From Armatimonadota bacterium (GTDB lineage Bacteria > Armatimonadota > Fimbriimonadia > Fimbriimonadales > Fimbriimonadaceae), in NCBI GenBank assembly GCA_037138755.1, contig JBAXHT010000003.1, forward strand, positions 248,001 to 312,000: DNA of 64,000 nt, read 5' to 3'. A model generated the notes under the pieces. That model saw nothing but the letters and a program-made list of their open reading frames with translations. It had not been told where the DNA came from and made no database searches. The first letter of the stretch is position 1, and every line of letters starts with the position of its first letter. The position numbers were made by a program, and so were the translations under genes. This document shows, piece by piece, positions 2,300 through 39,051 of the stretch.

Positions 2300-2355
2300 T
2301 TCAATCTGAGTTCAAAGAGCCTCCCAACCGATCTTAAGCATTGGAGGTACCGCGA

Positions 2356-2844
2356 ATGAAGAAGTCAGAACGCTTGTTAGGCTTTACGCTTGTCGAACTC
2401 CTCATTGTGATCATCCTTGTCGCAGTTCTTGCGGCAATCGCAATCCCTCGATTCTCCGACTCCGTCCTCCGGTCAAAGGAGTCAAGTCTTTCGGCCAACC
2501 TCGCTCTCATCCGCCTAGCAGCGGACAGAGCCGAAGCAGACACAGGGCTGACGTTCCCGGTCTCTGCTCTGGACGACCAAGCATCTCCCACCAACGGTTG
2601 GGAGAGGGGGGCCATGAATACAGATTGGGCTCAGAAGTCAGTGCCAGCCGGAACTTGGAAAGGTCCTTATTTGACACAAATACCAACGAATCCTTTCACT
2701 AACAACAACACGTACACCGGAGGAATCACCAATTCGCCTAGTTCAGCATGGACTCACTACTCAAAGCAGTCTTTTAATCGCAGCTACATCTACTTCCCTT
2801 CCACTAAAATAGGATCCGACGGGAAGCCATATCGAGAATGGTAA
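2356..2844 (+). CDS. type II secretion/type IV pilus pseudopilin
   Basis: 162 residues. The class III leader is clear: a basic start, then GFTLVELLIVI with prepilin peptidase cleavage between Gly9 and Phe10 and the conserved Glu at +5, followed by a hydrophobic helix to about residue 32. The remainder is a small GspG-like domain with GAMNTDW, GPYLTQIPTNPFT and a C-terminal PYREW. The start is set by GGAGGT at 2343-2348, 7 nt before ATG 2356. Assembly genes are not in the window, so this is an isolated minor or major pseudopilin. It ends 1 bp before the minus-strand tRNA-Val(TAC). Confidence 0.85.
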   Translation: MKKSERLLGFTLVELLIVIILVAVLAAIAIPRFSDSVLRSKESSLSANLALIRLAADRAEADTGLTFPVSALDDQASPTNGWERGAMNTDWAQKSVPAGTWKGPYLTQIPTNPFTNNNTYTGGITNSPSSAWTHYSKQSFNRSYIYFPSTKIGSDGKPYREW

Positions 2845-4701: not shown

Positions 4702-5213
4702 AAACGTCTCGCCGCAGCTTCCCTTGGACAATCATCGCAACCGCTGCCGTGGCTGGTGCTAGCTTTGTCGGAATTGCCAGCTATGTTAACGGCAACCGAA
4801 CTAAGCCACTTGTGTCGGATGAAGCTCCAATCTCGGTTACAGATGTTACGCCGGCAACATCGGCAGGATCAACTGGAGGAAAAGGCCAAAAGAATGAGAA
4901 CGGTTCGGAGCATCGCGATCTGGTTTCCTCCGACCATGTCACCACTGGAGATTTGAATCGCGCAGTAAAAGGCAAAGGACTTGATAACGCACGGGTCATT
5001 GGCCTAGACGTTGAAAATGGAACAGCGGTAGTGGACATGAACTCAGCAATCATTGATAGCCTTGGGTCGACTGGAGAAGCGGAGCTTATAGAATCCCTAA
5101 GGACTGCACTCTCGAAGGATAAGCGCGTTAAGAATTTCCAGATTCGAGTCGATGGAGAAATTCAAAAGACCCTTGGTCACACTGACCTCAGCTCGCCCGT
5201 TTCTGTCCGCTAG
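4698..5213 (+). CDS. GerMN-domain protein
   Basis: 171 residues. An N-terminal membrane anchor or uncleaved signal (about 10-28) is followed by a polar linker rich in Thr, Ser and Gly and a C-terminal GerMN domain (about 80-165). The domain shows the family pattern: GTAVVDMNSA, GSTGEAELIESLRTAL and IRVDGE. GerM in Bacillus is a lipoprotein needed for sporulation and germination, but the domain is widespread in non-sporulating bacteria with cell-envelope roles. ATGA overlap with the upstream amidase gene indicates translational coupling and a shared cell-wall function. Its end overlaps the convergent M50-like gene by 26 bp. Confidence 0.85.
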   Translation: MKTSRRSFPWTIIATAAVAGASFVGIASYVNGNRTKPLVSDEAPISVTDVTPATSAGSTGGKGQKNENGSEHRDLVSSDHVTTGDLNRAVKGKGLDNARVIGLDVENGTAVVDMNSAIIDSLGSTGEAELIESLRTALSKDKRVKNFQIRVDGEIQKTLGHTDLSSPVSVR

Positions 5214-5880
5214 CTCGGTTTAGGCCGATGACGGCCATAACAACTCCGTAAATGCCTAATAGCGTCCAAAGGAGTGCCCAACCGGCAGCGGGAACCCCGG
5301 TTTCCCTAGCGAGCATGGCTGCATCCGTGTTTTCCGCTCGCGCTCCAGTGAGCAATAACAAGTCGCGCAACGACTTGAATCCATTGATGCACTGCTGAAC
5401 TCCTAGGAACTGGGCTACGAGAAGAATTTCACTCGATTGAAGCCTTGCTGCCAGAACAAGGAGGAACACTCCCCAGAAGATGCCGATTGGCCATCCTACG
5501 ACATCTCCCCGAACCCAAGCAACATTGACCAGCAGAGTCACGACTCCAAGAATCTGACACCACTTTCGGGCACTCTTTTCGTTGACGGACGACCTGACCA
5601 TGAATGCCCCGAACAGCGAAGCCCCGATGTAGCCGGCCGAATAGATGAGGGGTACGAACCCCCCATAGGTCATGGTCACCCCTTCCGAGTTGCGGAAGAC
5701 AAGAATCCTATCGACACTACCTCCGGTCAGGACTGCCGCTAATGCGTGAAACATCTCGTGCAAATGTGTGTTGAGGTAATCAAACGGAAGAAGAATCCCC
5801 CTAACAATCGGTATGAACGGGAGAATGATAGACGCAGCTACCGCGATCAGGAATGCGTTAGTTGCCGGATTTCGGTTCAT
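5188..5880 (-). CDS. M50-like membrane metalloprotease
   Basis: 230 residues, polytopic, with five or six hydrophobic segments. The zinc-site motif HEMFH (HExxH) lies in the second segment (NTHLHEMFHALAAVLTG), as in the M50B-like family. The third ligand, usually Asp in an NxxPG-type motif, is not obvious. Start ATG 5880 is preceded by GAGGG at a good distance; an upstream in-frame extension was rejected because it reads back through the PAP2 gene. The first 23 bp overlap the end of the PAP2 gene, so the two are translated as an operon. The substrate is unknown. Confidence 0.75.
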   Translation of the reverse strand: MNRNPATNAFLIAVAASIILPFIPIVRGILLPFDYLNTHLHEMFHALAAVLTGGSVDRILVFRNSEGVTMTYGGFVPLIYSAGYIGASLFGAFMVRSSVNEKSARKWCQILGVVTLLVNVAWVRGDVVGWPIGIFWGVFLLVLAARLQSSEILLVAQFLGVQQCINGFKSLRDLLLLTGARAENTDAAMLARETGVPAAGWALLWTLLGIYGVVMAVIGLNRASGQKRAS

Positions 5881-6430
5881 TGATTTCCCTCTTCGCCGCT
5901 CGGCGCTTTCCGAAATAGTCGTAGAGCGTACAGATGAGTACGGCTGCAAACGCACCGCAGATCCAGCCGAGAACAACTTGGTAGGGATAATGCACTCCGT
6001 TGTAGATCCGGCTAAAGGAAACCAAGATTGCGAGAATCAGCCAAGGAATTCCGCCCCAACGCAGCGCGATCAGCATACAGATGGCAACCGCGAGCATGTT
6101 GGCACTATGCGCGCTCGCTGTGCCCGCCGAGTCAGATCTGCCAATTCTGAGGATAAGTTCATCGAGAGCGGGATCGTTACAGGGCCGAGGAAGCGGGATC
6201 GTCTTTTTAAGGATATTTGTCAACAAATCGGCGATCGGCCACGCTAGCAAAGCGCACACGGCACCCTTTCGTGTGTCTTTTCCCGCGGCAATCATTGCCC
6301 CGAGGCACACCAGCAAAATCAAGCGAACCCACCATTCCTGAAGACTCTCGCTGAAGAAGCGCATGGAACCTTCTAGGCCGGATGACCATCTATTGATCCA
6401 GTGGAACACCGCGTGATCAACTTGCTGCAC
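5858..6430 (-). CDS. PAP2-family membrane phosphatase
   Basis: 190 residues with about five transmembrane segments. The three phosphatase signature regions are present: KKTIPLPRP (KxxxxxxRP), ASAHSAN in place of PSGH, and SRIYNGVHYPYQ (SRxxxxxHxxxD). In the last motif the usual Asp after the catalytic His is Gln, and the second motif lacks Pro and Gly, so activity may be altered. Members dephosphorylate undecaprenyl pyrophosphate or phosphatidic acid at the membrane. GTG 6430 was chosen because TACACT (6437-6442) ends 6 nt before it and the 75 extra codons upstream are low-complexity and antisense to a likely gene. It forms an operon with the M50-like gene. Confidence 0.8.
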   Translation of the reverse strand: MQQVDHAVFHWINRWSSGLEGSMRFFSESLQEWWVRLILLVCLGAMIAAGKDTRKGAVCALLAWPIADLLTNILKKTIPLPRPCNDPALDELILRIGRSDSAGTASAHSANMLAVAICMLIALRWGGIPWLILAILVSFSRIYNGVHYPYQVVLGWICGAFAAVLICTLYDYFGKRRAAKREINEPKSGN

Positions 6431-6456
6431 GCGCTTAGTGTACTTTGAAGGTGGCG

Positions 6457-6771
6457 ATGAATTGGCTCGCAACTTGGCTATCCAGGAAGACCTGGTTTTT
6501 GACCATCCACTGGATGCGGAGACCGTGGATGCGTCGTCTCCACATGGCTCCGCTGCGGTGGATGCCTGCATCACGTCATCCTGGATTCCTCGAAAGCTAT
6601 CGCACGCAAAACCGCTTTGCTCGCAAGATTGGGTTGCCTCTGCTAAAGGCAACATACTTGTTTTTACTTGCCATGTTCGCGCTACAAATCACCTACTTGG
6701 TGGCAATCAAGATGTTTGACAGCGGCTGGCTGACGCCGCCTCAGTTGGAAGAGCGGCGCATTACGGAATGA
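6457..6771 (+). CDS. small single-pass membrane protein, unknown
   Basis: 104 residues, no recognised family. The first 65 residues are rich in Trp and Arg. One clear transmembrane helix follows (LLKATYLFLLAMFALQITYL, about 66-85) with a short polar tail. GAAGGTGG just upstream of ATG 6457 is a plausible ribosome site, and TACTTT at 6441-6446 could be a -10 element. It is divergent from the PAP2 gene (26 bp apart) and overlaps the convergent murB end by 11 bp. The alternative, a long N-terminal extension of PAP2 on the other strand, has poorer composition. Confidence 0.5.
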   Translation: MNWLATWLSRKTWFLTIHWMRRPWMRRLHMAPLRWMPASRHPGFLESYRTQNRFARKIGLPLLKATYLFLLAMFALQITYLVAIKMFDSGWLTPPQLEERRITE

Positions 6772-7714
6772 TTGGCGCAAAGCTCGACCAGTCTCCGATG
6801 TACATCACTTCTTCTTCGAGTTCGACTCCGAACTTTGATTGAACTTGAGCCTTGGCGTAGTGCGCCAAAGAGCGCAGCTCTGTAGCGTTAGCCCCGGCCA
6901 CGTTGAGTAGGAAGTTAGCGTGCTTCTTCCCGATCATCGCGCCGCCAATACGGAACCCCTTCAATCCGCACTGCTCGATCAAGAAGCCTGCTGGGACGAC
7001 GCTGTTCTTGCGCATTCCTTCGGTCAATCCGTCAATGTCATTTGCTAGCTTGGAGTCGATTACGTTCTTAAAGAAACTCCCGGCGCTGGCACTCGGCGGC
7101 TGCTTGCCGATCCGCTGCCGCTGATATTCACGGGCCTCGTCATAAGATTTTTTGGCGTCCCCCTTCGGTAAACGGAAGCGAGTTCGCGCGATGAGCGCGG
7201 AACGAGGATTTTCGCATCGAAGCACTGAGTCTCGGTACTTGAACTCCATCCAGCTCGGATCAACCCACTCGGCCTTTCCATCTTGGACGATTTCTAGGGC
7301 AATCAGAAATTCACTGATGTTGCTGCGATAAGCACCCGCGTTGCTGACGAGGGCGCCACCGACCGTTCCAGGAATTCCGACTGCAAACTCTAATCCGACC
7401 AAGCCTGATTGGGTCGTTTTCAGCCAAAGATCTTGAAAGGCTGCGCCCGAGTCTGCGATTACCTCATCTCCTTGAATCGTGATCTCGCGAGTCTGATTCA
7501 GAAGTATGAGCCCGTTAACACCTTGGTCTGATGCCAAGAAGTTAGATCCCCACCCCAAGGGCGTCACTTTGATCCCTTCCTTCTGAAATGCGGACGCGGT
7601 TTCAATCAATTGCGCAGAACTTCTCGCCTGGGCAAAATACTCCGCTTCTCCTCCCGCTTTGAGAGTGGTAAGCCGCTTCAGAGATACCCTACGTTGGACC
7701 GCTTCCCAGTTCAA
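6761..7714 (-). CDS. murB: UDP-N-acetylmuramate dehydrogenase MurB
   Basis: 317 residues; an FAD enzyme that reduces UDP-GlcNAc-enolpyruvate to UDP-MurNAc with NADPH in cytoplasmic peptidoglycan precursor synthesis. FAD-domain motifs are seen: TTLKAGGEAEYF, GWGSNFL and GIPGTVGGALVSNAGAY. The substrate domain has YRDS, SAGSFFKNV with the catalytic Ser, and a C-terminal GAMIGKKHANFLLN. The Glu near the end (ELEEEVMYIG) fits the third catalytic residue. It is the last gene of the rph-rdgB-tsaB cluster and overlaps tsaB by 4 bp (ATGA). Confidence 0.95.
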   Translation of the reverse strand: MNWEAVQRRVSLKRLTTLKAGGEAEYFAQARSSAQLIETASAFQKEGIKVTPLGWGSNFLASDQGVNGLILLNQTREITIQGDEVIADSGAAFQDLWLKTTQSGLVGLEFAVGIPGTVGGALVSNAGAYRSNISEFLIALEIVQDGKAEWVDPSWMEFKYRDSVLRCENPRSALIARTRFRLPKGDAKKSYDEAREYQRQRIGKQPPSASAGSFFKNVIDSKLANDIDGLTEGMRKNSVVPAGFLIEQCGLKGFRIGGAMIGKKHANFLLNVAGANATELRSLAHYAKAQVQSKFGVELEEEVMYIGDWSSFAPIIP

Positions 7715-8274
7715 GTTGATCCTCCGACGCGGCTAAGCGGTTGCTTGGGCTGAGAGATGCTTGGATCTATCAGATAGAGCGGCACGAGTGTTTCTGGTGC
7801 GATTCGTTCGACTTGATTCAGTAACGAAACAAATCTCTCCGCGTGGGGAAAAACAGGATTCTCGACCAAAGGCCCGAACCCGACGAAACCGACGTCAGGA
7901 AGGGACTCGCTCCTCGCAACCTCGCCTCCCGGCGGACGGATGAACCACTCACCTCGCTTGCTCGGAAACACGACGGTTTGGTCGAGTGAGATCAGATCAA
8001 ACGCCGAGGCACCACCGCAGTACGCACCCGCTGACCATGCCAATGTCTTAGCCATCGTGACTCCAACCCGTGTCCCGGTGAACGATCCAGGACCAAGATC
8101 TGCGAGAAAGAGGGTCCCCGCCAGGACATCAAAACCTGAATCGGCGAGAAGTTCTAAGCACGCGTTGGAAGCCTCTTGCCGAGACTCTCGCTCACCGGAG
8201 AACAGTAAAGTCCCTTCCACATCGAACACTCCGACCGATACGATAGGGCTACTTGTCGAGAATGCGAAAATCAC
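7711..8274 (-). CDS. tsaB: TsaB, tRNA threonylcarbamoyladenosine biosynthesis protein
   Basis: 187 residues with an ASKHA-type N-terminal fold: an opening FAFSTSS and the family signature GPGSFTGTRVGVTMAKTLAW near residue 65. TsaB is the scaffold partner of TsaD in forming t6A37 on ANN-decoding tRNAs. The C-terminal half is shorter and more divergent than usual, as is common. It overlaps both neighbours by 4 bp. tsaD and tsaE are not in the window. Confidence 0.9.
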   Translation of the reverse strand: MIFAFSTSSPIVSVGVFDVEGTLLFSGERESRQEASNACLELLADSGFDVLAGTLFLADLGPGSFTGTRVGVTMAKTLAWSAGAYCGGASAFDLISLDQTVVFPSKRGEWFIRPPGGEVARSESLPDVGFVGFGPLVENPVFPHAERFVSLLNQVERIAPETLVPLYLIDPSISQPKQPLSRVGGST

Positions 8275-9287
8275 TTCTTCTCGTCAAGGCGAATCGCGTT
8301 GATGAACGCGGTAAGTGCTTTTTCCTCAGCCTTGAAAACCGACTTGTTCGTTTGGACATAAGAAGCGAAGATATACTGCGGATTGAGCTGGGCGATGAGG
8401 ACATCACATGTCATTAAATCTCCACCCTTTTGAGATATCCCGTAACGCCATACGTACTGTCGCTGTTGCATGTCCTTCCGCACCGGCACAAGGCGGTCAA
8501 CACGGTTAACCGCTCCCTTAAAAAGCTTAGCGGTCGCGGCTGGCTTTTCTGAAAACGTCTTCGTAATCGGCGTGATCTTCTGTGAGTAGCAGTCAATGAT
8601 CACCGACTGGCTCAAGCCAGGGACGCTTATAGTGGCAGAACTCTCACCTAGCTTGGCGGCGCTACAGCCTTTCGGTAGTCGAAGCACATAGTTGGACCCG
8701 CTAATCATGATGGGGTGCTGAATCGGGGTCGGAATGATCGAGCCTGGAAACTGCTCAGAGATTTCAACTTTTCGCTCTGTGGGAACCGCCGGACGAGCTG
8801 CTTCCTTAACCGCAGTCTCCTTCATCGTACTCAGCACCCTCGTTAGCTGAGGCTCAACAGATGCAAAAACATCGCTTGGAGATGAGAGCAGTAGAACCAT
8901 TTTGCTCTTCGTCTTACGGAAGAACACTCCCCTGATCGTCGTCTCGTTCTCTTTTTTGCTTTTCGTAAAAATGAATGGGGAGCCAAGAGCTTCAACTGTC
9001 CATTGCCGCTCTACGGTAGAGCCTGACCGAGTGAGGATGTCCTTCTGAGCGGCCAAAAATCCTTCTGTATCCGTGGACTCATCGATGACGTACCCAAGGT
9101 CGAGCTTGCCGACAACTTTGCTGTCCTGGATCGGCACCCGTGCCGAGATTGCTAAGTTAGAATCTTTGGGGTTGAGCTTCCAAATCTTTGGAATTTCTAG
9201 AACCAGCCCTGCCGGCTTGATCTCAACCTTCCGCATTGGTTCAGTCTGTGCGGAGAGCGCGAATGCGAGGAGCGGAAGCAAGTTCAT
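8271..9287 (-). CDS. exported protein of unknown function
   Basis: 338 residues. A short N-terminal hydrophobic signal (MNLLPLLAFALSAQ) suggests export. The body looks like two similar beta-rich halves. The first (about 20-150) has KVEIKPAGLVLEIPKIWKL; the second (about 170-335) has KVEISEQFPGSIIPT and RLPKGCS. Both resemble small lipoprotein-like folds with a conserved opening strand and a final helix. I do not recognise a family. It lies between rdgB and tsaB and overlaps tsaB by 4 bp, so it is co-transcribed with housekeeping genes without an evident link to them. Confidence 0.7.
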   Translation of the reverse strand: MNLLPLLAFALSAQTEPMRKVEIKPAGLVLEIPKIWKLNPKDSNLAISARVPIQDSKVVGKLDLGYVIDESTDTEGFLAAQKDILTRSGSTVERQWTVEALGSPFIFTKSKKENETTIRGVFFRKTKSKMVLLLSSPSDVFASVEPQLTRVLSTMKETAVKEAARPAVPTERKVEISEQFPGSIIPTPIQHPIMISGSNYVLRLPKGCSAAKLGESSATISVPGLSQSVIIDCYSQKITPITKTFSEKPAATAKLFKGAVNRVDRLVPVRKDMQQRQYVWRYGISQKGGDLMTCDVLIAQLNPQYIFASYVQTNKSVFKAEEKALTAFINAIRLDEKK

Positions 9288-12314: not shown

Positions 12315-13052
12315 CTACGCGGGACAGTTTACGTGCCAAGGTGTTCGGGTCGGCTGGCCCGGTGTTGGCGGGATCGGGAACTGACGCATCAGTTGGACAC
12401 CTGAAAATGGGAGTCCGCAGGGGTCTCTGAGAATGAGTCCCTTCGACATCCACTTGGCATGACCGTCGAAAAAGGTGTTGTTGACGCCGCCTATCTGACC
12501 GTCGAGCCACAATACCGGAGGAGTCGTAGCGGACTTGTTGTACAAATTTTTGGGTGGCTCATACCACGAATCGTCGTAGATGCCATTCTTCAAAGTGACA
12601 ACGACAATCTCGGCGGGGGTTTCAACGCTCGTGTAGTTCAGGCCTTCTGCAGCTCGGTTAGCGACATAAGAACGGGGAACAAAGGGTCGGCCTGATTGAC
12701 CATCTTCCAGAGGATGTGGCTTTCGCCCTGAATCGCTGGGTGACCAGAGAACGTCGCGATTCTTCAGATAAGGCTGAATCTGGTTCCACCAACGGTTTTC
12801 GATTGTCGCACCAAAGGGGGTGAGAGGTCGAGTGCGAGAAGGATCGACGTTATGAGCGAAAAAGAAGATGGTGTCATCCTCGTCCGCCATGTACATCATT
12901 AGTCCGATACCAATCTGGCGAGTGTTGGAGAGGCAAGCAGACTTTTTCGCCGATGCCTTGGCCTGGGCAAACACGGGAAACAAGATTGCGGCAAGAATTG
13001 CGATGATTGCAATAACTACCAATAGCTCTATTAAAGTGAAGGCGCGTCTCAC
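12315..13052 (-). CDS. DUF1559-type pseudopilin (H-X9-DG family)
   Basis: 245 residues. Class III prepilin leader [30 protein letters not shown] is cut between Ala4 and Phe5, with Glu at +5. The helix is followed by the usual Armatimonadota/Planctomycetes pattern: [35 protein letters not shown], then [11 protein letters not shown] near residue 200. These proteins are abundant in both phyla and are thought to form pseudopilus-like or secretion structures. The start is GTG 13052 with TACGAT (13059-13064) 6 nt upstream and no Shine-Dalgarno site. Confidence 0.85.
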
Positions 13053-31117: not shown

Positions 31118-31161
31118 TCCTCAAACAGTTTCCAAACAAGCATCACCTAAACTAAGTGATC

Positions 31162-32418
31162 ATGAGGTTTCAACCGAAGTCAATTGCCATCCTCAGCGCT
31201 GGCACAATCGCTGCGATCGTCGTTGCCCAAAGCGGGCGATTCGTCGCGGCAAACCAAACTGCTGGATACAAAAACGAAGTTTCGATCACCGTCCAAGGAG
31301 ATAAACGAATCATCACTTCCAATGGGATTCCCGACCATTCTGTTGGTCGTTTCCCTAACCCCGGGAATCCGAATCGGATCGCACCTCAGAAGTATTCTTG
31401 GTCGATTCCGCTTAAGCCGACGCCAGCATCCCGTCCGGCCAGAGGAAACCTTTTCGGCGTTGCTGTCAACGGGGTTCCTTTCGATCCTGGCACTGCGGAG
31501 CTTTGGAACAACAACTTTGCTTGGCACTACGAGGCCCTTGTCGGCCAAGTCGCAAACGGACGTGGCCTTGGCGTCGATGAGAACCTTGCCCACGTTCAGC
31601 CAAACGGGGCGTACCACTATCACGGGCTTCCGTACGGGTTGCTGAACAAGTTGGACTACAAGAACAAGATGGCTATCGTCGGCTGGGCGGCCGACGGTTA
31701 TCCTGTTTACGGCAACTATGCTTACTCGGATGCTTCGAGGGTGAGTTCGATGAAGAAGCTGACTTCGGGTTATCGCCTTAAGTCAGGTACCCGGCCGGAT
31801 GGCCCTGGCGGAGCTTATGACGGCTCGTTTGCTTCGGACTACGAGTGGGTCTCCGGCGACGGTGATCTCGATCAGTACAACGGTCGAACTGGCGTCACGC
31901 CAGAGTTTCCGAACGGAACCTACTACTATGTTTTGACCGACTCATTCCCGTTCATTCCTCGCCAATTGAAGGGACAAGCTGACCCTAGCTTCAGCAAGGG
32001 TGGACCCGGTGGCCCGGGCGGTCCAGGGGGTCTGCGTGGTCCGGGTGGCGGTCAGGGAGGTCCGGGACAAGGTGGACCAGGACAAGGTGGACCAGGACAA
32101 GGCGGACCAGGACAGGGTGGGCCTGGCCAAGGCGGGCCGGGTTTTGGCGGGCCGGGCGGACCACCGAGAGGAATGGTTCCGGCGGACGTTCTGGCCAGCT
32201 ACCTTGAGCTTTCGGCAGACCAGCAGGCACGGCTGAAGACGTTCAAGACGGCGCTTGAAAAACTGTCTGGCGCAGGGGTGATGCCCCACCAGCTCACCGC
32301 TTTGAAGCTGAGCAAGTCGCAAATTGAGAAGATCGCTCGAGGCGAAAAGCTGGACTCTGTGCTGACGAAAGAACAGCAGTCTCAAGTTCAAGATGACGGG
32401 CCACCGATGCAGGATTAG
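31162..32418 (+). CDS. YHYH-domain exported protein with Gly-Pro-Gln repeats
   Basis: 418 residues. Signal-type N-terminus (about 1-30). The YHYH domain (about 35-265) shows the eponymous motif in NGAYHYHGLPYG plus GWAADGYPVYGNYAY and FPNGTYYYVLTDSFPFIPR. Residues about 280-335 are a collagen-like tract of GGPGQ units. The end (about 340-400) is helical with LELSADQQARLKTF and LSKSQIEKIARG, like Spy/CpxP or LTxxQ proteins. YHYH proteins occur in planktonic and soil bacteria; the role is unknown. TAAACT ends 8 nt before ATG 31162. GTG 31156 is an alternative start. The stop overlaps that of the convergent gene. Confidence 0.8.
   Translation: MRFQPKSIAILSAGTIAAIVVAQSGRFVAANQTAGYKNEVSITVQGDKRIITSNGIPDHSVGRFPNPGNPNRIAPQKYSWSIPLKPTPASRPARGNLFGVAVNGVPFDPGTAELWNNNFAWHYEALVGQVANGRGLGVDENLAHVQPNGAYHYHGLPYGLLNKLDYKNKMAIVGWAADGYPVYGNYAYSDASRVSSMKKLTSGYRLKSGTRPDGPGGAYDGSFASDYEWVSGDGDLDQYNGRTGVTPEFPNGTYYYVLTDSFPFIPRQLKGQADPSFSKGGPGGPGGPGGLRGPGGGQGGPGQGGPGQGGPGQGGPGQGGPGQGGPGFGGPGGPPRGMVPADVLASYLELSADQQARLKTFKTALEKLSGAGVMPHQLTALKLSKSQIEKIARGEKLDSVLTKEQQSQVQDDGPPMQD
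32056..32145 (+). repeat. 15 bp tandem repeat coding GGPGQ
   Basis: About six units of the form GGTGGACCAGGACAA, each encoding Gly-Gly-Pro-Gly-Gln, with synonymous changes between units, so selection on the protein repeat is likely. Unit number may vary between strains. Confidence 0.8.
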
Positions 32419-33425
32419 TCTGGTCGGATCGCAATGGAATCTGCAGCGATTGGTCGTGATGTAAGATTCCACTGGTTGCCGCGGATTCTGTCTCCGCCGA
32501 CCAGTCGTCTTGTCCAAACGGCGATCTTTCCGATATTCGTCGTTTCCTTATGGTTACCGAGGGCGACCCAATACCGCTTATCAGGATCGAATTCGGGGCC
32601 GAAGATTGAGTCAGCAATGACGCGAGGTTTCGCGGTCTTCAAGTCCATCTCAAAAATCCATCCGAAGCTACCAGCGGAGCCGGAGCGAAATCGATTCTCC
32701 GCATACAGTTTGCGCCCGTCAGCCGACTTCCAGGCTTGCCGAAGATCGATTGCTGGCCAGACATAGTCTTTGCCATTGAGAGTGAGTACACCGGTTTGGC
32801 CTGATGATTCGTAACTCCCAAACGTGTTCGTCCTCATTTCCCCAGCCTTAAAAGTGCATTTCAGACCTAACGGCACAAACGGGTTCGGAAACGTTTCTCC
32901 TTCATCAGTCCAGGGCTCTGGAATCAGATTAGGAATTGGCGAGCTGACGAGCCGACCTTTCTTTATCGTCCAACTTCGGATGGGGACCCGTGCTGGGTCG
33001 TCCAATCGCGCGAATTCCACAAAATGCGGCTTAGCACGGCTAGCCGCTAGCCCAGGAAAATTGTAGTCATCGGCTCTTTCAAAGTATCCGGTTCGAACTG
33101 CGTTCCGTTTTCCCGTCTTTAAGTTCAGTGTAAACACCTTGGTTTTCAAGTGAGTCGGAAAATGGTATCCGAGCCAAGTTTCGGCTTTCGTGACGCCCAC
33201 CGACTGTCTCCAACCGATGGTGTATGAATCTAGCCAGAAGACATCGAACTTCTCGGTGCCATCGAAGGTTAGTTGCCTGAACTTCTTCCCTTTCAGGTCG
33301 CACAGATAGACTTGGTGGTAGCTGGTCCGGCGGTCGCCCGGCGGGTATTAGAAGCGGACACAGCACGCTACGACGGGTGGTGTTTGAGCCGTTACCGAAA
33401 GCAGAATGAGTTGCGAAGAAAGCAT
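32415..33425 (-). pseudogene. tandem paralogue of the 33453-34469 gene, interrupted by an in-frame TAA
   Basis: From ATG 33425 one frame runs to the stop at 32415, broken only by a TAA at 33350-33348 (codon 26). Codons on both sides match the downstream-numbered neighbour in order: HQVYLCDLKG versus HQIYLFRIDG, RQLTFDG versus KQLTHSD, IGWRQS versus LAWLES. With the stop read through, the length equals that of the paralogue (about 336 versus 338 residues). A single base change would restore it. The remaining open part could be translated from GTG 33200 (261 residues), but the signal-type N-terminus would be lost. It may be a recent pseudogene, a strain variant or a sequence error. Confidence 0.7.
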
Positions 33426-33452: not shown

Positions 33453-34469
33453 CTAGTTGGCCAGCCTAATCATTGCGGAATCAGTGTGGACAACACCACT
33501 TGTCAGCCTCCACTGACCACCAGATTGCAAGTTTCCTGCCCAAAGATCACGGTTCCATACAACTTTCTCTCCCAGCATGGCAAAGGATTTCCAGTTGGAT
33601 AAGCCTATCCATTCATCTCTTGATCCGTCAAATCCAGTTAGATCGACTCTTCGTACGACGGATTGCACAATCCCGCTTGGCAAGTGACACTTCCAGACCC
33701 AATGTTCTGGTCCTCGATTCACTCCTCGCTCTTGTGAGATCGCATATATGCTTTGTGAGCCTCCGCGGACAAATGCTTTCTCAATGTGGCTGGATGGCCA
33801 AACGATGGTTCGTCCTCCAATTTTCATGAGACCAGAATGACCATCCCAACTGCTGTCGTCATACCAACCATAACTCGGCAGGGCTGGTGCCCTCTCAAAT
33901 GTGCATTTAACTCCGGCGGAAACAAATGGGTTTGCTAGGAGCTTGCCTTCCTCTTGGTCGAATGAAGTATTGAGAGCCGGGCACTGTTCAAACTCGGAGG
34001 CTTCGAAGGGTCCTGTTGCTTTCATTAGACGACCGTGACTCACTGTAAATCGTAGCTCTTGCCGCTTGTTGATAAATCCAAAGTGTAAGGGATATTCATA
34101 GAGTGTTGACAGCTCGAGAGTTCCTCTTGCGACCACCTTTGCTCGTCCAGACTTTAGGGAGTATTGAATCAATCGAAATTTGGGTTTTGTGGTGAAGTTT
34201 TTGATTCTGTAGCCATTTGCTGAGACCCCAAACTCTGGTTCCTCAGACTCAAGCCAGGCAAGTTCATCTTTGTTCACCCAAGTCGCGCAAATTGAGTCCC
34301 TATCACTGTGAGTTAGTTGCTTCACCGCGCCGCGGCCATCAATCCGAAAAAGGTAAATCTGGTGAAAACTTGGGCGCTTAGCCGGATGCGCGATGTACTT
34401 GCGGATTGAGGCGACAACAAGTGTTGCCGACTCGCTCGGAGGAAGCAATGCCGTTAAGCCCGGTAGCAT
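33453..34469 (-). CDS. protein of unknown function, intact tandem paralogue
   Basis: 338 residues. The N-terminus is weakly hydrophobic (LPGLTALLPPSESATLVVA), so export is possible. The rest looks like repeated beta-strands of a propeller-type fold: IYLFRIDGRGAVKQLT, FRLIQYSLKSGRAKVVARG, NPFVSAGVKCTFERAP, GGRTIVWPSSHIEKAF, then GGQWRLTSGVVHTDSAMIRL. The last two segments correspond to GNQWNLTSRPIAADSIAI in the neighbouring copy 28 bp downstream. No family is recognised. TAGAAT (34475-34480) ends 5 nt before the ATG. It follows the Pup-ligase-type gene by 22 bp. Confidence 0.65.
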   Translation of the reverse strand: MLPGLTALLPPSESATLVVASIRKYIAHPAKRPSFHQIYLFRIDGRGAVKQLTHSDRDSICATWVNKDELAWLESEEPEFGVSANGYRIKNFTTKPKFRLIQYSLKSGRAKVVARGTLELSTLYEYPLHFGFINKRQELRFTVSHGRLMKATGPFEASEFEQCPALNTSFDQEEGKLLANPFVSAGVKCTFERAPALPSYGWYDDSSWDGHSGLMKIGGRTIVWPSSHIEKAFVRGGSQSIYAISQERGVNRGPEHWVWKCHLPSGIVQSVVRRVDLTGFDGSRDEWIGLSNWKSFAMLGEKVVWNRDLWAGNLQSGGQWRLTSGVVHTDSAMIRLAN

Positions 34470-36637: not shown

Positions 36638-37885
36638 CTACGGCTTGTCCGGAACCCATTTGGCGTGACCATCGGCATAGACGACGGCTCGACCGCCTGG
36701 GCCGTTGGTGAAGCCTAGTTCGGTGTTCGCGATATCTTTGATCTGATCCAGTGGTCCGCCCCCAAAAGTGTAGTTGAATCCATCCAACATTTTTCTGTTC
36801 TTCAGGTACGGCATCAGACGGTTTACGAAATTCTCGCCGTTGGGTAGAACGTCTTCCATGTCCGATGCATAGAGGATCAGCGCTAAGCCGACCTGCTTTG
36901 CCTGGCTCAACGCCTGAGCTTTGAGTGCGGCAAGTTTCATTTTCTCAGCCAGATCACGATCGAACGGCTTGATGTCTCTGATCAGCAGTGCCCCGTTATC
37001 AACATAGACGACTGATGCCGCCAAAGGATGGAGTACTGGGTTAAATCCGGAAGGGCAAAGGTAAGTCGTTCGATCAAGGAGGGTTTTTTTGGGTTTGCTG
37101 CCTCGTTTGTCCGGAAGTTCCGGGAGCCCGATCCGGAGTTCAGCGTCTTCTCCACTGAGTTCAAAGGGTTTCTCTGGCTCCACATAAGCGAGCTTTCCCC
37201 ACAGATCGGACTTAATCTCCTTGACGGCTACTTCTCCGGTTGCTCGGTCAAGAGTGGCGTCTAAGTATTGAATGGGGTTTGTATTTCGGCTGTAACTGGC
37301 AAACTTGATCACGCGTGCATCGGCGTAGTAGGGTGCCTGGAAACCCACCCGGAGCTTTACTTTGTAAACGACAGGTTGTCGACCAGGTTCTAGGATCCCG
37401 AAGGAAGACTCACCTACTTCGTACATGAGGAGCGGGGCGACACTTTTCTCGCCAGCGTAGAACAATGTCTCGGGGGTGATGGCTGTCGCTTGGATGCGAC
37501 CTGTGCTGAGGTCTAAGAATCCTTGCAGTTTTGGATTTGAGGAGTCGAAAAAGAAGATCGTCTTGCTGTCGCCTAGGGCTGTTAGCTGGGTACTCGGGGT
37601 GGCACCCGGAATCATGAGCTCAGTTGAGACGCCGCGTTGGCAATCATAGGCGAACCATTTGGAAGACGGTGCGGCTGTGAGGCTTGGGTTGAATATTACG
37701 TTTGGGTCGATACGGTTGTAGAAGATACGCTCGCCGTTCGCCGAGTAGCTGAAGTTCATTACCATTCCGCTCGACACGGATTTGGCGGGACCAACCATCC
37801 AGGCTCGGGTTTCGTCCCCGAAGATGGATTGAGCGTTTGACGCAGCTACCGCGAACAACGCAACTAGATTGAGAGTTGCTTTCAT
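36638..37885 (-). CDS. exported protein with a C-terminal pseudopilin-type (DUF1559-like) domain
   Basis: 415 residues. Signal peptide MKATLNLVALFAVAASNA; residues 20-310 look like a beta-propeller with SYSANGERIFYNRI, LTALGDSKTIFFFD and VVYVDNGALLIRD. The last 95 residues copy the C-terminal part of DUF1559 pseudopilins: SQAKQVGLALILYASDMEDVLP, LMPYLKNRKML and YADGHAKWVPDKP, close to [27 protein letters not shown] and FFDGHAKWM in the protein at 12315-13052. The pilin leader and hydrophobic helix are absent. It starts 22 bp after the DUF192 gene, with AAGGCG as ribosome site, so it is the last gene of the leuD unit. Confidence 0.75.
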   Translation of the reverse strand: MKATLNLVALFAVAASNAQSIFGDETRAWMVGPAKSVSSGMVMNFSYSANGERIFYNRIDPNVIFNPSLTAAPSSKWFAYDCQRGVSTELMIPGATPSTQLTALGDSKTIFFFDSSNPKLQGFLDLSTGRIQATAITPETLFYAGEKSVAPLLMYEVGESSFGILEPGRQPVVYKVKLRVGFQAPYYADARVIKFASYSRNTNPIQYLDATLDRATGEVAVKEIKSDLWGKLAYVEPEKPFELSGEDAELRIGLPELPDKRGSKPKKTLLDRTTYLCPSGFNPVLHPLAASVVYVDNGALLIRDIKPFDRDLAEKMKLAALKAQALSQAKQVGLALILYASDMEDVLPNGENFVNRLMPYLKNRKMLDGFNYTFGGGPLDQIKDIANTELGFTNGPGGRAVVYADGHAKWVPDKP

Positions 37886-37906: not shown

Positions 37907-38455
37907 TTACTCATCCGTTCGGAGAGTTTCGGGAATTTTCACTTTGTCACCGACTTTGAGACCCATCCGATCGGCGAGGCCGAGTTTGAGTTCGATGACG
38001 TATTGGTAGGCGCCTTTGGGTTCAAGCATCGTATCGTTCAGCGGCTGGCCTTTGGCGATGCTAACGATCTTTTTGTCTTTGCTGATGTAGGCGATGTCGA
38101 GCCCGAGCGGCGTGTTGTGCATCCAGAAGCCGTGCTTGCCGTCGTCGGCCTGGGTCTCGGGGAAGACGAAGATCATTCCTTCGTCGTCTTTAACTTCCCT
38201 GTCGACCAGGAACATCATTCCCTCCTGTCGCTTGCTGGGGTTGTCCATGATCCAGAGCTTCATGGTCCCTTTAGGAACAGCGATTTCGACTTTTTTGAGA
38301 TCTTTGAGCTGGTTGATTCGGTCGGGGTTTATGTCCGTCGGAGTTGAAGGGTTTGTTGGAGTTGAAGTTGACGGAGAAGAGTCGGGGGCGGTTTGACAAC
38401 CAGAAAGGAGAACCGCGAGAAGAAGCGCGGACGCGCCCATCCGCCAGCCGTTCAC
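37907..38455 (-). CDS. DUF192 lipoprotein
   Basis: 182 residues. Lipoprotein signal LLLAVLLSGC with lipidated Cys20, a Ser/Thr/Pro linker (to about 47), then a DUF192 domain: VPKGTMKLWIMDNPSKRQEGMMF, DDEGMIFVFPE, GFWMHNTPLGLDIAYI and VIELKLGLADRMGLKVGD. The domain is widespread in Gram-negative bacteria and archaea and its function is unknown. It overlaps leuD by 4 bp. Confidence 0.85.
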   Translation of the reverse strand: MNGWRMGASALLLAVLLSGCQTAPDSSPSTSTPTNPSTPTDINPDRINQLKDLKKVEIAVPKGTMKLWIMDNPSKRQEGMMFLVDREVKDDEGMIFVFPETQADDGKHGFWMHNTPLGLDIAYISKDKKIVSIAKGQPLNDTMLEPKGAYQYVIELKLGLADRMGLKVGDKVKIPETLRTDE

Positions 38456-39051
38456 GAGGCCCCCACCAGCGGAACGAAAGCGAGTTTGGTGGCCTCGTAG
38501 TCCGCGATCTGAGAATCGTACTGAAGGGTGGTTCCGATCAGGTCGAGACCCGCGATAAGCGCGAGCTTCGTGGCTTCATTGATGTCGAATCCAAGCGATT
38601 CACCTTTGCTTAGGACGGTTTGATCGGGAAGATTTACCGTGACTTCGGCTCCCGAGCCAGCGGAAACCAGCTTGGCATGATCTGTCGGGTTCAGCTCGAT
38701 CAGCAGGAGCCCACAGTTGGCAGAGTTGCCACGAAAGATGTCGCTATAGCCGGGTGAATCCGCATCGCGCCGAGCGATCACGCAGGCGAAACCAGCCTGT
38801 TGGATCGCCCAAACCGCGTGCTCGCGGGAAGAACCGCAGCCGAAGTTTGTTCCGACGACTAGAACAGAAGCGCCCGCGGCTTCGGGCTGGTCGAGCGGGA
38901 AGTCAGCGCCGCGCACATCACTGAAAACCAGTTCGCCGTACCCAGCTTTCGAAACTCGCGAGAGGAATCGGGCCGGAATGATTCGGTCGGTGTCCACCTG
39001 ATCCTGGTTCAAAACTGCAATCTTGCCCGTATGAGTGGTAAATCCTGGCAC
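38452..39051 (-). CDS. leuD: 3-isopropylmalate dehydratase small subunit LeuD
   Basis: 199 residues; the swivelling domain that pairs with LeuC to isomerise 2- to 3-isopropylmalate in leucine synthesis. Motifs: VDTDRIIPARFL near the start and the substrate loop GTNFGCGSSREHAVWAI near residue 70. Start is GTG 39051. leuC is not beside it. It heads a minus-strand unit with the DUF192 and pseudopilin-domain genes and is divergent from trpE, 49 bp away. Confidence 0.92.
   Translation of the reverse strand: MPGFTTHTGKIAVLNQDQVDTDRIIPARFLSRVSKAGYGELVFSDVRGADFPLDQPEAAGASVLVVGTNFGCGSSREHAVWAIQQAGFACVIARRDADSPGYSDIFRGNSANCGLLLIELNPTDHAKLVSAGSGAEVTVNLPDQTVLSKGESLGFDINEATKLALIAGLDLIGTTLQYDSQIADYEATKLAFVPLVGAS

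Follow-up and report, generated by a model that had tools for sequence, protein, structure and literature searches.

A leaderless type IV pilin head at the C-terminus of a predicted exported beta-propeller family in Armatimonadota

In a family of Armatimonadota proteins, a C-terminal domain homologous to the heads of DUF1559 / H-X9-DG pseudopilins follows a predicted beta-propeller, with neither the prepilin leader nor the membrane-embedded half of a pilin. The member studied here is encoded in the window, by which we mean the whole 64,000-nucleotide stretch analysed, from a genome of the Fimbriimonadaceae. We propose, with a probability of about one half, that it is a secreted or periplasmic two-part binding protein, in which the head, as a free-standing interaction module, attaches the propeller to a conserved partner in the cell envelope. 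What was computed, as described below, is the fusion architecture, its homology to pilins, the absence of the anchor, how widely the family occurs, the clustering of its sampled heads on one branch, the higher conservation of the head and the related heads on other proteins.

Results

Gene, domains and neighbourhood

The fusion ORF occupies 36638-37885 on the reverse strand, and its product starts with MKATLNLVALFAVAASNAQS; coordinates and frame had been correctly given in a preliminary description made from the DNA letters. The relevant features of the window are:

36638..37885 (-): whole fusion gene, putatively exported beta-propeller plus C-terminal pilin head, 415 aa + stop
37832..37885 (-): putative signal peptide, residues 1-18 (MKATLNLVALFAVAASNA), classical export type as read by eye
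36962..37831 (-): predicted divergent beta-propeller, residues 19-308 (AlphaFold2, VIA-align, Foldseek)
36641..36961 (-): type IV pilin head of the DUF1559 / H-X9-DG kind, residues 309-415 (sequence, profile, predicted fold)
36860..36958 (-): predicted amphipathic alpha1-C helix of the head, residues 310-342 (DSSP of the model)
36656..36673 (-): C-terminal DGHAKW motif, residues 405-410, common to the fusion head and the window pilin
12315..13052 (-): DUF1559-type pseudopilin with prepilin leader, the comparison gene or window pilin (N_methyl above, DUF1559 below the cut-off)
37907..38455 (-): DUF192 protein, upstream of the fusion gene (Pfam DUF192, E 5.2e-24)
38452..39051 (-): Aconitase_C protein (Pfam Aconitase_C, E 8.4e-18)

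The DUF192 gene and the fusion gene are 21 bases apart and, because of this spacing, are probably co-transcribed. The Aconitase_C gene, which we take to be leuD, overlaps the DUF192 gene by four bases. On the 3' side of the fusion gene are a zinc-ribbon gene (below the Pfam cut-off), presumably fmdB, and a gene of the Pup-ligase family. The order leuD-DUF192-fusion gene is conserved at four related loci (L067, L068, L069 and L071); the gene names of most neighbours at the related loci are likewise our assumption. Elsewhere in the window, two adjoining genes, at 33453-34469 (-) and 32415-33200 (-), encode proteins with similar C-terminal ends that look propeller-like by eye and gave no Pfam match, and a YHYH-domain protein (E 5e-63) with a long GPGGQGGPGQGG repeat tract is encoded at 31156-32418 (+).

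Export signal and missing anchor

The N-terminus of the fusion protein reads by eye as a Sec-type signal, from which we infer that the protein is exported. This signal contains neither a prepilin leader nor a lipobox, is the sole strong hydrophobic stretch of the protein, and is modelled by AlphaFold2 as a helix over residues 2-16; a Pfam scan of the protein gave no N_methyl match. Among 34 members of the fusion family, 30 have a strong hydrophobic N-terminal core, 33 lack any hydrophobic 19-mer beyond residue 100, and none carries the prepilin leader motif, confirming the lack of a leader noted in the preliminary description. The same description had reported that the pilin helix was missing. 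This is true of its hydrophobic N-terminal half, alpha1-N, a feature of filament subunits that is absent from the fusion protein, but not of the amphipathic C-terminal half, which is retained and modelled as a helix of 33 residues.

Homology of the head to DUF1559 pseudopilins

In a single BLASTP comparison, the fusion protein and the window pilin were aligned with E 2e-7 (22/73 columns identical, 20 gap columns). This alignment spans the helix and PYLKNRKML, the ADGHAKW motif being recovered only as a separate segment with E 0.20. A single-sequence search of the whole genome with the last 103 residues found 11 other places at E < 1e-3, and the window pilin at E 0.21 only. With phmmer, the last 105 residues matched all 32 extracted ORFs (31 distinct; E 2.6e-9 to 1e-4), with the window pilin ranking sixth, a count that is not independent because 29 of the 32 target loci had been retrieved as matches to the C-terminal part. 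The loci retrieved with the DUF1559 model (L001, L002 and L005) were matched by phmmer as well; L005 and L016 represent a single gene that enters as two rows into the leader count, phmmer, hhalign, the combined alignment, the tree and the identity and motif comparison. Residues 1-305 matched none of the 32 ORFs by phmmer, and none of 200 shuffled versions of the C-terminal part matched anything. The FTLIEL leader is present in 30 of these 32 ORFs, and the open frame of L022 starts within the helix region. In the last of them, L034 (C1:370226-373318 of the same genome; match at 1501-1593), a pilin-type head is found behind a membrane helix without the FTLIEL leader.

Profile comparisons gave stronger matches. 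A family C-terminal profile of 26 members, with no pilins included, was searched against the ORFs of the window and of 26 loci, and detected the window pilin at E 7.8e-12. In hhalign, the fusion head matched the 30 leader-bearing pilin rows of the window genome (29 distinct) with a probability of 99.7 and E 4.5e-26; this alignment of 59 columns begins at VFAQAK, immediately after the membrane segment of the pilins, and runs as far as PYLKN, so that the DGHxKW end lies outside it. In the combined alignment, PYLKN, the next strands and DGHxKW are in register for fusion heads and pilins. D342 and D405 are invariant in the fusion heads, and G406 is likewise found in 34/34 members. The His of H-X9-DG is present in none of the 34 fusion heads; counted in the same crude way, only 4 of the 32 pilin rows have it, with 7 rows unscored. 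A Pfam scan of the fusion protein alone gave no match, and TIGR04294 scored below the cut-off against both the whole protein (E 0.17) and its C-terminal part (E 0.027).

These sequence comparisons indicate that the fusion head and the DUF1559 / H-X9-DG pilins share common ancestry. The resemblance of the C-terminal ~95 residues to the pseudopilin at 12315-13052, as first proposed, is upheld by BLASTP, phmmer, the family profile and hhalign; it depended on a significant profile match between the two C-terminal regions, and such a match was found. Chance similarity is ruled out by the shuffles, the family profile and the profile-profile comparison.

Predicted structure

A model of the whole fusion protein was obtained with AlphaFold2 using 34 sequences (mean pLDDT 92.5, pTM 0.82). 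It consists of strands over residues 20-308, a helix over residues 310-342 that comes straight after the last propeller strand and corresponds to alpha1-C, short helices, and strands at 370-372, 389-395, 398-403 and 408-412. The head modelled alone reached a pLDDT of 94.1. When this head model was compared with solved structures using VIA-align, the seven best rows were all type IV pilins: Thermus PilA4 (Z 8.1, 95/110 residues, rmsd 3.0, chain residues 18-118), Shewanella PilA (Z 5.3), the Neisseria major pilin (Z 4.6), PilX (Z 4.4) and Clostridium difficile PilA1 (Z 4.1, 4.0 and 3.9), followed by an unrelated row with Z 3.3. The PilA4 value of 8.1 is what the tool describes as typical of a best match. 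Foldseek gave no match to the head at E 0.001; PilA4 was third by E (E 1.2) and was the sole listed row with TM > 0.5 (0.57). The head profile found nothing meaningful among the sequences of solved structures (best E 0.7). Based on the VIA-align Z of 8.1, the seven leading pilin rows and the sequence homology, the C-terminal part is predicted to be a pilin head, with its alpha1-C helix packed on an antiparallel sheet. Since the PilA4 alignment starts at chain residue 18, the model would correspond to a pilin without about its first 18 mature residues.

For the whole model, the VIA-align matches included 3c5m (Z 11.8, 245 residues, rmsd 5.6, model residues 17-308), which we take to be a seven-bladed propeller, and 6e29 (Z 10.7), which is titled beta-propeller and was also found by Foldseek (6e29_C, E 2.0e-5); rows titled beta-propeller or WD40 reach Z values of at least 10. 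The Foldseek TM-scores for the propeller were low (about 0.3), so that it appears to be divergent. The N-terminal part is thus predicted to be a divergent beta-propeller, a ring of small antiparallel sheets, and the confidence of the model together with the fold searches supports the earlier reading of the gene product as an exported propeller-like protein.

Spread and conservation of the fusion family

A search with the fusion protein (E 0.01) gave matches, pilins included, in 126 of 151 genomes, comprising its own genome and relatives. At E 1e-10, 198 of the 291 genomes searched in the phylum had a match to the head profile and 93 had none; these genome counts are lower bounds because candidates were only partly scored (up to 16 per genome for the head profile, and up to 40 for the second-group profile described below). 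Fusion-type heads (E <= 1e-20) were found at no fewer than 131 places, in at least 106 of the 291 genomes and in 10 family-level groups; 120 of the 131 places are in frames of at least 400 aa, and 20 genomes contain between two and four of the 131. In the genus of the window genome, the fusion is present in 18 of 20 genomes (window genome included), and 2 of the 20 are without it at E 1e-20. Given these two congeners and the 93 genomes without a head match, the fusion protein is dispensable.

A pattern scan of public genome contigs matched 73 stretches, of which 27 were confirmed, representing 26 loci. Of these, 24 are labelled as Armatimonadetes, Fimbriimonas/Fimbriimonadales/Fimbriimonadaceae or Chthonomonas (presumably also of Armatimonadota), one as Actinomycetota and one simply as 'bacterium'. 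The search for the fusion covered the genomes of one phylum and this one scan of public contigs; the head was also searched in a plasmid collection, where it had no match. At E 0.01, the Pfam model PD40 matched 2 of the 34 members and two other propeller models matched 1 each; among the NCBIfam models, TIGR04294 matched 2 and one model of unrelated name matched 1. The fusion family is therefore undescribed by any Pfam or NCBIfam model, none of which matches more than 2 of 34 members.

In a tree of heads (100 rows, 115 columns), the 34 sampled fusion heads are on one side of one branch with an SH-aLRT support of 99. The sampled pilins are also on one side of one branch, with a weak support of 68, and 51 of the 96 inner branches are open. 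The pilin L021 was excluded from this tree for its gaps. Alignment A1 excludes L037 (which is the window gene), L047, L059, L060 and L063, and alignment A2 excludes the incomplete or short ORFs L070 4873-5931, L085 119-679 and L076 7519-7878.

The 34 members can be aligned over most of their length, L084 (333 aa) being short at its N-terminus. Mean pairwise identity is 0.43 for the head (residues 310-415) versus 0.18 for the propeller (residues 20-305), with the head the more similar of the two parts in all 561 pairs; when the window protein is compared with L067, identity is 0.80 in the head and 0.40 in the propeller. This contrast fits a conserved docking part joined to a variable recognition part, with the constraint on a small fold as an alternative. 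An annotation accident or a recent one-off fusion is ruled out by the 34 alignable members and the 10 family-level groups.

Leaderless heads on other proteins

Further leaderless heads were collected from 40 stretches (L093-L132) that were selected by frame length and score and not at random, and hence the architectures listed here are no census. Nine proteins carry a related leaderless head on a membrane peptidase of the M56/BlaR1 type; the HExxH motif was found in seven of them, and Pfam M56 scored above the cut-off in five of five tested, all of which had been selected for their M56-like look. In BlaR1, the sensor is the extracytoplasmic C-terminal domain. The five tested peptidases, with a leaderless pilin-type head at the C-terminal end where BlaR1 has its sensor, are encoded by the following reading frames:

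L110, 675-2279 (+)
L112, 1160-2596 (-)
L113, 1036-2679 (-)
L114, 1125-2651 (+)
L119, 678-2576 (+)

A second putatively exported family, grouped by eye, combines a leaderless head with an uncharacterised N-terminal domain in 10 proteins of ~260-430 aa (L104, L106, L107, L108, L109, L120, L123, L124, L125 and L132). Short proteins that bear either a signal peptide or a membrane helix along with a leaderless head were also found; another of this kind is L085 3163-3747. L117 and L130 have what we take to be a GYF-like N-terminus; L117 gave no match in the Pfam scan. At L090, a TM-anchored head-like protein, a CAAX-protease-family (Rce1-like) protein and a propeller fusion are encoded nearly without gaps (4934-8405, +), in what may be an operon.

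A profile of this second group of leaderless heads matched at least 87 of 113 genomes at E 1e-12, which is not a count of M56 forms because the rows include propeller fusions. In the window genome, the window gene was its sole match at E 1e-12, with 40 of 77 candidates scored. The heads on M56 proteins, in the second exported family and on short proteins lie off the propeller-fusion branch, dispersed across the tree outside the pilins (3, 6 and 7 changes, respectively), so that a common function of all leaderless heads is only a possibility. Leaderless heads look like a portable module in Armatimonadota.

Pilus machinery and gene linkage

T2SSF was found in 289 of the 291 phylum genomes and prepilin peptidase in 267, and because this machinery is near-universal, co-occurrence is a weak test of a link between the head and pseudopili. 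Of the 24 genomes without a prepilin peptidase match, 20 are below the line of 90% completeness and 5% contamination. The remaining four, which are of good quality (G017, G022, G060 and G142), have the fusion; all have T2SSF as well, and the prepilin peptidase gene may therefore have been missed or be divergent. In two 1.5-Mb genomes of one family (G047 and G065), the head profile found nothing at E 1e-10; each has only two T2SSF matches but retains a prepilin peptidase match.

Near the 26 fusion loci, 4 prepilin ORFs were observed versus 4.4 expected, the latter being a rough value from ~40 pilin-type places in the 3.27 Mb of the window genome, and other genomes may be denser. No linkage to minor-pilin or pilus genes was seen at the fusion loci, where the recurring neighbours read as housekeeping genes. 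No PilY1-type Pfam family was found among the 34 fusion members at E 0.01, and a distant relation is possible. The window itself contains, at 2341-2841 (+), a prepilin-type ORF with the leader GFTLVELLIV, for which N_methyl is just under the cut-off.

Discussion

Comparison with known systems

The fusion head shares with the DUF1559 / H-X9-DG pseudopilins (PF07596, TIGR04294) the head fold, the alpha1-C helix with KQ and Y..D.DD.xP, PYLKN and DGHxKW, but it has no leader or alpha1-N and is placed at the C-terminus of a propeller. PilY1, a tip adhesin, contains a propeller. The M56 proteins resemble the fusion in ending with a leaderless head from the same superfamily, and differ from it in being membrane peptidases rather than soluble propellers, with heads elsewhere on the tree. 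Modular pilins such as Streptococcus sanguinis PilB and Caulobacter CpaL likewise join a pilin module to an unrelated functional module (PMC8179133, PMC12607857). However, their pilin part is N-terminal, with the extra module behind it, whereas the fusion has its pilin part last and is missing the membrane half of a pilin. In the modular pilin survey, which counts > 1,200 proteins in 264 architectures, the N-terminal position of the pilin part was built into the search (PMC8179133), and it is likewise N-terminal in the described CpaL (PMC12607857). PilY1 / PilC tip adhesins are similar to the fusion in having a conserved and a variable part (PMC7541494, PMC13190605); PilY1 is anchored to the tip of the pilus along with minor pilins (PMC7541494), and pilY1 genes are often within minor-pilin operons (PMC13190605). 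In contrast to these adhesins, the fusion has a covalently attached pilin head, gave no PilY1-type Pfam match at E 0.01 and has no minor-pilin operon in sight.

For Fimbriimonas ginsengisoli, the genome description reports 79 PulG-type genes, 65 of them with the N-terminal methylation motif (PMC4072686), which leaves 14 without it; some of these 14 may be leaderless heads. No report of a pilin head on an exported propeller was found in the literature searched, which had preprints and most subscription papers outside its scope. The fusion places a known pilin fold in an inverted, anchor-less architecture.

Possible roles of the head

The preliminary description had offered two roles for the domain, as an adaptor for a pseudopilus-like system or with an independent binding role. 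The pilin C-terminal domain on a putatively exported propeller has held up in sequence, profile, predicted structure and tree, while the adaptor role is no more than possible: co-occurrence with the machinery has little power as a test, and prepilin genes are not enriched nearby. As an adaptor, the head would dock externally on DUF1559 pseudopilins or minor pilins, and the propeller, like PilY1, would act as an adhesin, either at the tip or side-on. The head has retained the pilin fold and signature, the machinery is present in almost every genome of the phylum, and the head is undetected in the reduced genomes G047 and G065, which have only two T2SSF matches each, though both retain a prepilin peptidase match; a conserved end and a variable end are also described for Myxococcus xanthus PilY1 proteins (PMC13190605). 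Set against this are the absence of linkage to pilus genes at the 26 loci, the four good-quality genomes that have the fusion with no prepilin peptidase match, the usual filament contacts that would be missing without alpha1-N, and the lack of any PilY1-type Pfam family among the 34 members. We regard docking on a pseudopilus as a tentative possibility, with the odds against it.

The place of the related heads in M56 proteins, which is that of the sensor in BlaR1, suggests instead that the head may bind a small ligand or a cell-wall fragment, the propeller protein being a soluble partner in the envelope and the head-bearing M56 peptidases the receptors; with no ligand site identified in the head and no M56 partner of the head-bearing kind seen among the candidates scored in the window genome, such a signalling role seems unlikely. 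It is more doubtful still that the head only stabilises the propeller and has no binding role of its own: packing on the propeller is possible in the model, where the helix directly follows the last strand, but the head is predicted with high confidence without the propeller, and it is the more conserved part, with the invariant D342 and D405. Elements of these ideas may be combined if the head is a general extracytoplasmic docking or sensing module, through which soluble propellers and BlaR1-type proteases read the same pseudopilus or surface-contact state, the one presenting or capturing and the other leading to regulated proteolysis; this scheme is speculative, and we consider it improbable.

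We favour a portable extracytoplasmic interaction module, for which PilY1-like docking to a pseudopilus is also possible, and an independent binding role is favoured because leaderless heads also occur on M56/BlaR1-type peptidases and on other putatively exported proteins. For this two-part binding protein we infer that it is exported, that the propeller captures a target, that the head docks, and that a conserved partner exists. The protein would be exported by its Sec-type signal peptide. Its fast-changing propeller would probably capture a target that differs among species, and its slowly changing head would dock the propeller to a conserved envelope partner. With the prepilin leader and the hydrophobic alpha1-N missing, the anchorless head would not be expected to undergo processing by prepilin peptidase or to enter the filament core in the usual way.

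Implications

Pilins are regarded as parts of filaments, and modular pilins as filaments with extra cargo. Here, an anchorless pilin head is a conserved domain of putatively soluble exported proteins, with a related form on membrane peptidases. The head is small and soluble and is thus experimentally tractable. If it docks to the pseudopilus, it would provide a handle on the role of the many DUF1559 pseudopilins in these genomes; if it binds something else, the heads of DUF1559 pseudopilins may bind the same thing.
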